From Clostridiaceae bacterium (GTDB lineage: Bacteria > Bacillota > Clostridia > Saccharofermentanales > DTU023), in NCBI GenBank assembly GCA_012838795.1, contig DUOO01000024.1, forward strand, positions 1 to 50,127: 50,127 bases of DNA, read 5' to 3'. Positions 43,692 through 45,981 of the stretch are shown here, in pieces. The notes below the pieces were generated by a model. That model searched no databases. It was given only the letters and a program-made list of their open reading frames with translations, and was not told the origin of the DNA. The position numbers and the translations under genes were made by a program. Numbering within the stretch: position 1 is the first letter of the stretch; every line of letters begins with the position of its first letter.

Positions 43692-44045
43692 CTAAATCCC
43701 GAATCCAAATTCTTCAATTGAATTTTTATATTTTCTTGAAGTCTTCTGTTCTTTACCGCCTTCAACCAAATATGTCGTTTCTTGTGGATCAAGATCAATT
43801 GTGACAATTGCTTTTTTCCAATCGGCTGTCTTACCGGTATTCCTATTTACACGTTTCATCTTGCCGGACACATTTTGTGTATTGACTTTCAAAACACGAA
43901 CATTAAACAACTTTTCAATAGCTTGTCTTACTTCGGTCTTTGTAGCTTTTCGATCAACTGCAAAAGTATATTTGCCATCCATGCTGTCCATGTTGCTGCG
44001 TTCAGTGATTATCGGTTTAATGATAATATCATTCGGGTTTCTCAT
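43692..44045 (-). CDS. rplW: 50S ribosomal protein L23
   Basis: The 117-residue protein (IIIKPIITERSNMDSMDGKY, then VRQAIEKLFNVRVLKVNTQN) lies at the tunnel exit and docks trigger factor and SRP. It is slightly longer than usual at its C-terminus. It overlaps rplD by 4 bp with AGGAGG inside the rplD end. Confidence 0.96.
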   Translation of the reverse strand: MRNPNDIIIKPIITERSNMDSMDGKYTFAVDRKATKTEVRQAIEKLFNVRVLKVNTQNVSGKMKRVNRNTGKTADWKKAIVTIDLDPQETTYLVEGGKEQKTSRKYKNSIEEFGFGI

Positions 44046-44665
44046 ACGTAGACCTCCTGAACTTTATTAACAGCTTCATTGGTAAAAATAATGTTCTTAT
44101 ATTTTAATAAATCATACACATTCATTGTATTAACCAATGCTGTTTTTACATCTTTAATATTTGCTGCAGATTTCTCAACATTGCTATTCGGTTCCGCCAT
44201 AATAAATAGTGACGAACCTTGCAATTCCAAATTATTGATCGTTTTAACCATTTCTTTGGTTTTAATTTCTTCGAGCTCCAGCTTGTCCAAAACTTTGATG
44301 CGATCAGCGCTTAAAGCTTGTGACAACACTGATTTCATTGCTAATCTGCGCATTTTTTTATTTGTTTTATAAGAATAGTCACGGGGCACAGGTCCGAAAA
44401 CAACTCCGCCGCCCACATGGTTAGCGGCTCTGATTGAGCCTTGACGTGCTCTGCCTGTACCTTTTTGTCTATAAGGTTTTCTTCCGCCGCCTCTTACTTC
44501 ACTGCGGCCTTTCACTTTGGAAGTCCCCTGACGTTTATTAGCAAGTTGATTTTTGACGATACGATGTACAACATCTTCATTGGGTTCTATTCCGAAGATG
44601 GCATCTTCCAATTCAATATCACCAATTATTTCACCTTGCATGTTATACAAATTAGTCTTTGCCAT
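44042..44665 (-). CDS. rplD: 50S ribosomal protein L4
   Basis: The 207-residue protein has the extended tunnel loop (GGGRKPYRQKGTGRARQGSI) and PRDYSYKTNKKMRRLAMKSV. In some bacteria L4 also represses the S10 operon; the long leader upstream of rpsJ would allow such control, but this is not shown. GGGAGGAG precedes the ATG. Confidence 0.97.
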   Translation of the reverse strand: MAKTNLYNMQGEIIGDIELEDAIFGIEPNEDVVHRIVKNQLANKRQGTSKVKGRSEVRGGGRKPYRQKGTGRARQGSIRAANHVGGGVVFGPVPRDYSYKTNKKMRRLAMKSVLSQALSADRIKVLDKLELEEIKTKEMVKTINNLELQGSSLFIMAEPNSNVEKSAANIKDVKTALVNTMNVYDLLKYKNIIFTNEAVNKVQEVYV

Positions 44666-44682: not shown

Positions 44683-45306
44683 CTAACGTGTTTTGACGGA
44701 AGTTTTGATTTCTAACAAACCGCCTTTTGGTCCCGGTACAGCACCTTTAACGACCAAAATATTACGCTCACCGTCTACTTGAATTACTTCCAAGTTTTGT
44801 ACTGTAACGCGTTTATTTCCCATTTGTCCGGGTAATTTTTTGCCCTTCGGAACTCTGGAAGGCGTAGCTGAAGAACCCATCGAGCCTGCAGAACGGTGAT
44901 ATTTTGAACCGTGAGCCATGGGTCCTCTGCTGAAACCGTGTCTTTTGATAGCACCTTGAAAGCCTTTGCCTTTCGAGGTTCCGGAGATGTCTACTTTATC
45001 ACCGGTTTCAAACATTTCATCAACTTTCAGAACTTGACCCGTTTCATATTCATCTGTATTTTTGAATTCTTTCAAAATACGCATCGGTTCAACATTAATT
45101 TTTTTAAATTGACCGTTTACGGGTTTATTGTTCTTTTTTGTCTTATCGTACCCTACTTTAACTGCTTGATAACCTTCGACTTCATCCGTTTTGTTTTGAA
45201 CTACGGTTACAGGACCGCAATCGATAACGGTAACGGGAATCATTAAACCATGTTCATCAAACAGTTGAGTCATACCGGCTTTTCTACCGAGCATAAATCT
45301 GTTCAT
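44683..45306 (-). CDS. rplC: 50S ribosomal protein L3
   Basis: The 207-residue protein shows the L3 blocks [40 protein letters not shown] and [20 protein letters not shown], an arm that reaches the peptidyl-transferase centre. AAGGAGG precedes the ATG. Confidence 0.97.
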
Positions 45307-45364: not shown

Positions 45365-45676
45365 TTATAATTTAATTTCTATATTAACTCCAGCCGGCAT
45401 CTCTAATCGCATTAAGGATTCCATTGTCTTATTATTAGGTGCCAGAATGTCGATTAAACGTTTATGTGTTCTGGCTTCGAATTGTTCTCTCGAATCTTTA
45501 TTTACATGAGGAGAACGCAAAATTGTAATAATTTCCTTTTCAGTCGGCAAAGGAATCGGACCGGAAACACTTGCACCGGTACGATTTGCGGTCTCAACGA
45601 TTCTTGATGCACTTTCGTCCAAAATCTGATGATCAAAAGCCTTGAGGCGAATTCTTATTTTTTGATTAACAGCCAT
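45365..45676 (-). CDS. rpsJ: 30S ribosomal protein S10
   Basis: The 103-residue protein ([20 protein letters not shown], then [20 protein letters not shown] and [16 protein letters not shown]) is the first gene of the S10-spc transcript and also a transcription antitermination factor with NusB in model bacteria. AGGAGG lies eight bases before the ATG. The tuf/fusA group that often precedes rpsJ is not here; trpS is. Confidence 0.97.
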
Positions 45677-45949
45677 TGATAAAACCTCCTAAGTACTGCT
45701 TTCACTATCTTCTTCTAACAACTCTTCCGGGAGTTTCATGTCCTGTCATGACAAAACCCAGACACTTCGTATGCAACGCATGTGCTGGGCAACCTTCCCG
45801 GCTCTGCTGCGAAATAGATGTGGCGTTCGACTCTTTGTTCGAACTGCTCGGTCTAAGTTACCCGCGGATACCGCAGCGGTAAACACGGCAATCTCAGACT
45901 TCTTAGCTAAATCACGTCAAAAATATTCATCCCGATTTTTGACGCGATT
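45677..45949 (-). promoter_or_regulatory. Structured leader RNA of the S10 operon
   Basis: About 270 nt lie between the predicted start point and rpsJ, more than a simple UTR needs. On the minus strand it begins with a 15-bp hairpin (45949-45910). It also has TACCG-CTG-CGGTA near 45880, GTTCGA/TCGAAC at 45844-45825, and a compound stem around TGTCATGACA with GGGTTT and AAACTCCC flanks (about 45771-45730), about 45 nt before the binding site. No terminator or T-box sequence is seen and no long frame with a start. It may bind a ribosomal protein as an autoregulatory site. Confidence 0.5.
45910..45949 (-). promoter_or_regulatory. 15-bp hairpin at the 5' end of the S10 transcript
   Basis: Minus-strand AATCGCGTCAAAAAT pairs with ATTTTTGACGTGATT at all 15 positions, one of them a G-T pair, around the 10-base loop CGGGATGAAT. 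The stem starts within a few bases of the predicted transcription start. Confidence 0.7.
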
Positions 45950-45952
45950 AAG

Positions 45953-45981
45953 AGTATATAACATCTAATTTGTTGATGCAA
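45953..45981 (-). promoter_or_regulatory. Promoter of the S10-spc operon
   Basis: On the minus strand TTGCAT (45981-45976) and TATACT (45958-45953) are 17 bp apart. AT-rich sequence upstream (about 45985-46030) could act as an UP element. Confidence 0.75.

Follow-up and report, generated by a model that had tools for sequence, protein, structure and literature searches.

A leader upstream of the S10 operon in a Saccharofermentanales genome, read as a divergent and more elaborate subtype of the S10-Clostridia ribosomal leader

To our knowledge, the control of S10 operons outside the gamma-proteobacteria is poorly understood. The window analyzed here, the whole 50,127-nt stretch of contig DUOO01000024.1 (assembly GCA_012838795.1, Clostridiaceae bacterium, order Saccharofermentanales), carries such an operon on its minus strand, where Pfam assignment gives the order rpsJ-rplC-rplD-rplW-rplB: rpsJ (S10, PF00338) at 45365-45676, rplC (L3, PF00297) at 44683-45306 and rplD (L4, PF00573), which encodes the proposed ligand, at 44042-44665. 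The upstream neighbor on the same strand is a tRNA-synt_1b gene, read as trpS. The question raised by this locus is what kind of RNA element precedes rpsJ, and how it might act on the genes behind it. A first-pass annotation had described a 15-pair hairpin and about 230 further structured nucleotides ahead of rpsJ, and folding bears this out: the 273-nt leader (45949-45677, minus strand, as are all features described below) folds at -92.6 kcal/mol with a z of -4.44, and none of 200 dinucleotide shuffles (0/200) folds as well.

The best reading of this region is an S10-operon 5′ leader of a divergent and more elaborate subtype of the S10-Clostridia ribosomal leader. By comparison with its relatives, the predicted architecture is made of a 5′-terminal hairpin (P0), an ancestral core of three stems (P1, P1b and P2), a pseudoknot between the apical loop and a downstream GCAGC, and a long-range stem (P3) around a U-tailed hairpin (P4). 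Covariation, on which the first-pass annotation had staked its proposal of an S10-operon leader, was found for the stems; we grade the covariation as strong for the predicted P1, P1b, P2, 5′ hairpin and P3, and as modest for P4 and the GCUGC-GCAGC pseudoknot.

The conserved core and the family of the leader

The core was analyzed in an alignment of related leaders, designated A1. Among 155 distinct loci with rpsJ, the 109 that carry GATTG[C/T] at a fitting distance were taken; removal of eight judged to be chance matches in other lineages, and of L154, left 100 aligned leaders. A further 10 were set aside because their lineage lacks the loop insert or because they aligned poorly, and filtering at 95% identity reduced the remaining 90 to 81. 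The invariance of GATTG[C/T] in A1 is partly built in, because the leaders were picked using that motif. Across the 26 named pairs of the alignment, 95.1% of cells pair, vs 31-49% after a shift of one side by 1-3 columns. Double compensatory changes, counted per single branch and compared with a null that preserves the tree and the number of changes per column, amount to 30 vs 4.0 for P1 (5′ strand GUCUGAG, 45893-45899; 3′ strand CUUAGAC, 45851-45857), 17 vs 1.7 for P1b and 20 vs 3.4 for P2 (hairpin GUUCGA...UCGAAC, 45825-45844), the strand of the latter being a palindrome.

The first-pass annotation could not match the leader to a known class, and had proposed a comparison with known leader families. 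Such a class exists. At the gathering threshold, an Rfam search of the whole window found a tRNA alone; under a permissive threshold, the S10-Clostridia leader RF03136 matches at 45912-45824, over P1, P1b and P2, with an E of 0.0031 and a score of 25.8 bits, which is below its gathering cut-off of 35.1 bits. With stricter filters, none of 59 genomes (the window's own and 58 related ones) scores above the cut-off and the own genome gives no match, and 12 of the 59, the own genome excluded, match at E<=0.001. Throughout the class, 135 of 292 genomes exceed the cut-off, G067 (37.3 bits) being the single genome of the window's order that does so in that search. RF03136 matches two of 14 control genomes, those of B. 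subtilis and L. lactis; E. coli is named among these controls.

For a covariance model of relatives, which had likewise been proposed, 38 of 47 representatives of the window's order were used, nine divergent ones being excluded by hand. This model, R1, matches the window at 45804-45905 (order-specific core and GCAGC site) with 80.6 bits, the window sequence being one of its 38 training rows, and it matches 116 of 118 genomes of the order, many of which supplied training rows; this count does not depend on the GATTG[C/T] selection alone. On the same strand as rpsJ and 94-185 nt upstream of it lie 113 of 119 R1 matches. The six outside that range comprise two at contig ends (G041 and G001), one in G067, which has rpsJ downstream though it is missing among the rpsJ rows listed, and three weak matches (22.8-27.9 bits), one of them within an ORF. 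In G001, a close relative, the leader (L270, 475-573) stands at the contig end with a frame-shifted rpsJ behind it, and the listed rpsJ match of this genome, on another contig, spans residues 27-103 only, probably through an assembly fault.

R1 was also run on 30 RF03136-type leaders that came from elsewhere and had no part in its training, and it finds 23 of them at E<=0.01: 19 of 26 from the 69 class loci brought in by RF03136, and all four from named contigs, one of which (L093) may belong to the order. RF03136 thus finds the window leader and R1 finds RF03136-type leaders, and both are therefore homologous; a core of P1 and P2 of the RF03136 type, with covariation, is present in the window leader. 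Judged by the S10 protein, DUPV01000008.1 (100% identical) is the nearest of the named contigs, followed by a Mageeibacillus sp. metagenome bin (95%).

The window leader shares with RF03136 its location upstream of rpsJ, a P1 with an internal loop, P2 and a linker before P1. It differs by a stable 5′ hairpin and an apical stem-loop, both additions of the window's order, the loop GCUGC pairing with GCAGC; the 81-position model also covers neither P3 nor P4, and P3-like and P4-like parts are found in other Clostridia as well. The available part of Eckert and Weinberg (2020; PMC7247131) presents a Firmicutes S10 r-leader as already published, with numerous examples from Clostridia, and RF03136, judging from its name, is presumably the alignment of that leader. 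The family is already known; the 81-position Rfam model lacks P0, the GCUGC-GCAGC pseudoknot, P3 and P4. Our claim is kept to a new subtype, not a new kind, because published alignments may already draw P3, P4 or the pseudoknot.

The promoter and the 5′-terminal hairpin

The leader is preceded by a -35 element TTGCAT (45976-45981) and a -10 element TATACT (45953-45958), separated by 17 nt, and this promoter (45981-45953) leads us to infer that transcription starts at the foot of the 15-pair hairpin. Its earlier description as near-consensus was generous: by eye, TTGCAT agrees with the consensus at three of six positions and TATACT at five of six (8/12 overall), and a consensus promoter scan of the window does not list the pair. 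A promoter of the same kind occurs at the same place across the 81 leaders, 76 of which have TTGC and 77 a 17-nt spacer, counts that lean to this pattern because the search itself, which demanded TTG and TA...T, favored TTGCA and a spacing of 17; the same search of eight unrelated loci yielded no such promoter (0/8). The first paired base follows the -10 box by 5-10 nt in 60 of the 81 leaders (median 7).

P0 (45910-45949) consists of 15 pairs between 45949-45935 and 45924-45910, closed by a 10-nt loop; it is fully paired, as had been stated, if one G-U pair is counted beside 14 Watson-Crick pairs. The mean folding z of the 5′ segment is -2.45 in the 81 leaders (<95% identical) vs -0.28 in 80 upstream controls. 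Within a leader, the two halves of P0 form a more stable duplex than halves combined across species do (-13.5 vs -8.6 kcal/mol in the 81 leaders, z -17.2; -13.0 vs -8.1 kcal/mol in 35 representatives), and, when length-matched, own pairing beats the mean of the others in 73 of 80 cases.

Elsewhere in the class, the corresponding 27-nt stretch for the most part does not fold stably, having a mean z of -0.42 with 11% of values below -2 (64 loci, one of them from the window's order), vs a mean z of -0.08 in 61 controls; this comparison with the order is rough, since the class test, which skipped four class loci, used fixed 27-nt pieces, unlike the order test, and a few anchors (L201, L216) are misplaced. 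The 68 class loci include L246, from G067 of the window's order, which is counted in the tests of the 5′ segment and the U tail and left out of the looser-anchor test of P3 given below. A stable P0 looks like a feature of the window's lineage and not a general one in Clostridia.

The pseudoknot, the long-range stem and the U-tailed hairpin

Downstream of the core, the apical loop GCUGC (45873-45877) would pair with site A, GCAGC (45806-45810), 98.0% of cells being paired in A1. For the five inner pairs, with the tested columns kept outside the tree, four double changes are seen vs 0.34 under the null (p 0.0005); with a sixth pair counted, neither the cells paired (p 0.145) nor the double changes (p 0.117) of the pseudoknot reach significance. 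The sequences of the pseudoknot and of P4 vary little, as would also be expected of sites bound by a protein. A conserved GCAGU, site B (45695-45699), lies just upstream of the Shine-Dalgarno sequence AGGAGG (45685-45690). We make no claim for a pairing between site B and the core loop: there are no double changes (0 vs 0.59 under the null), though a duplex-energy permutation gives p 0.005.

P3 joins the strand just 3′ of P2 (45806-45823) to the strand just 3′ of a CCCGG element (45702-45723). In the 81 leaders, the duplex with own partners gives -10.7 vs -6.2 kcal/mol with partners from other species (z -18), the z in 35 representatives <75% identical is -11.8, and all 81 have at least four pairs outside site A. 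Across the class, strict anchors caught eight of 68 loci (five representatives) and the result was not significant (p 0.18); looser anchors admitted 63 of 68 loci (38 representatives), and none of 5000 permutations was as good (0/5000), many of these rows having misplaced anchors. The conserved element GAAACUCCCGG (45727-45737) is seen in A1 and in the class-wide leaders, its consensus in the order being, by eye, near GA[A/U]ACGCCCGG.

Several smaller features of this region vary among lineages. In the fold of the window's leader, CCGGGA pairs with UCCCGG (45801-45796 with 45732-45727) inside P3, using the conserved CCCGG, and by eye this pairing is confined to close relatives. In many class-wide leaders (L186-L188, L192-L194 and others) the sequences of the order are replaced by CACUGUACA after P2 and by GUGUACAG after the CCCGG/CACGG element, and in several class-wide leaders P3 extends to GUCGUAC near the Shine-Dalgarno sequence.

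In the window's genus the 3′ end of the 5′ strand of P3 overlaps site A. In 13 of the 81 leaders, including all six A1 members of this genus, site A is itself part of the best P3, which makes the pseudoknot and the innermost part of P3 mutually exclusive in these leaders; in the remaining 68 the two can coexist. It is conceivable, although we consider it improbable, that GCAGC is a switch in the window's genus, pairing either with GCUGC of the core loop or with the GUUGU that ends P3 on its inner side, and that a ligand at the core would choose between them and thereby decide what the polymerase does at P4. This reading is limited to some lineages because of the 68 leaders in which both structures can form. 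In the literature searched, no description of a pseudoknot-gated attenuator was found for S10 leaders.

Inside P3 lies P4, CCCAG...CUGGG (45757-45789, dG -13.0), followed by a U-rich stretch that starts with UUUU (45753-45756). Its double compensatory changes in A1 number 3 vs 0.32 under the null (p 0.0025). A GC-rich stem followed by UUUU is present in 62 of the 81 order leaders, against 0.7 expected from letter shuffling; for the class leaders the figures are 27 of 68 against 1.2, a few of these 27 stems (L187, L230, L232) falling outside P4; the simple stem-and-UUUU scan found nothing in the other 41 of the 68. The tail in the window has four U, its sequence being UUUUGUCAUG; among the 81 leaders, 23 have no U directly after the P4 stem, and 73 have at least four U in the next 8 nt. 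The tail is short, which makes pausing likelier than strong termination, and the tail of the window's P4, as far as its sequence goes, suits a pause or a weak terminator.

A candidate antiterminator pairing between CUGGG and the downstream CCCGG is unsupported (88.1% paired vs 88.0% under the null, p 0.55). In 26 of the 81 A1 rows (e.g., L011, L155 and L183) the loop of P4 holds a conserved stem, CCAAAGUGCYR...RGUAACUGG, which the window is without; the internal loop of this stem resembles that of P1 (AUUG/GUAA), and it is a possible second protein site.

Possible modes of regulation

The reading that we favor, with moderate confidence, is that of a known autoregulatory leader type, in the form of a divergent S10-Clostridia subtype, which probably acts through L4-responsive attenuation at P4. 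When one of the proteins of the operon, L4 most probably, is in excess, it would bind the conserved core and stabilize the folded leader during transcription; RNA polymerase would then pause or stop at P4, lowering expression of the whole operon, and P3 and the pseudoknot would set how often P4 is used. P0 would most likely shield the 5′ end from 5′-end-dependent decay and also prevent the first nucleotides of the transcript from pairing wrongly with the core.

The model for this proposal is E. coli, where uL4, most likely together with NusA, is believed to end transcription prematurely within the S10 leader (PMC10931766, available part). The two leaders are alike in being long and structured, in preceding the same operon and in holding a terminator-like hairpin, which the window has in the form of P4 and its U tail, a short one in the window; the comparison is one of working mode only. 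They differ in that no homology is shown between them, E. coli being without an RF03136 match, and in that L4 binding in the window is putative. L4 is thus our best guess by analogy with E. coli, and another operon protein could serve. In the available portion of a paper on premature terminators (PMC2965389) rpsJ does not occur, and that of PMC10085705 holds nothing on S10 leaders.

The alternative that survives best keeps the same leader and assigns it another ligand from the S10 cluster, with S10, L3, L23 or L2 binding the core; we regard this as a real but distinctly less probable possibility. It gains from the caution of Eckert and Weinberg (PMC7247131, available part), whose predictions are less confident for motifs upstream of several r-protein genes, and from the fact that, in an ungapped comparison of five leaders made without a shuffled control, no rRNA-like site pointing to L4 was found; it is opposed by the regulation of this operon by L4 in E. 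coli (PMC10931766, available part), the leader of which shows no homology by RF03136. In that comparison the best scores were 9-11 against the own 23S loci and up to 12 against E. coli 23S; the window's own assembly gave no 23S rRNA match. E. coli 23S carries GGAGAATGT (923) and ACACACGG (943), both of which resemble leader motifs; rRNA mimicry through these motifs found no convincing support: they are lacking at that place in the three clostridial 23S sequences compared there, the pattern having failed to locate the place in four others.

Control might instead be purely translational, the leader folding through P3 over the ribosome entry site so that a bound ligand blocks initiation at rpsJ, with P4 as no more than a stable spacer hairpin. 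We hold this to be rather unlikely. The 3′ strand of P3 stops 11 nt short of the Shine-Dalgarno sequence and in several class-wide leaders (L186, L229 and L241) P3 runs on towards it, and the minimum free energy fold of the window's leader pairs two of the six Shine-Dalgarno bases, the first two, through CUUAG with a CUAAG upstream of P1, so that some translational effect is possible. However, the other four bases are unpaired in that fold, the CUUAG-CUAAG pairing is, by eye, not kept in the close relative L014, and a U tail follows P4 far more often than expected by chance.

More doubtful still is the idea that P0 alone matters, as an mRNA stabilizer, the remainder being constitutive structure: P0 does sit at the presumed 5′ end in the order and its strands co-vary, but the internal core is conserved far more widely than P0. 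That the stems are chance pairings in an intergenic stretch is refuted for practical purposes by the covariation, the folding z and the partner-permutation tests.

For the family, the architecture now reaches beyond the public 81-position model at both ends, with P0, the pseudoknot, P3 and P4 added. The model R1 detects leaders that the Rfam cut-off misses, and the extended architecture offers concrete mutants for asking whether L4 attenuates the S10 operon in Clostridia.
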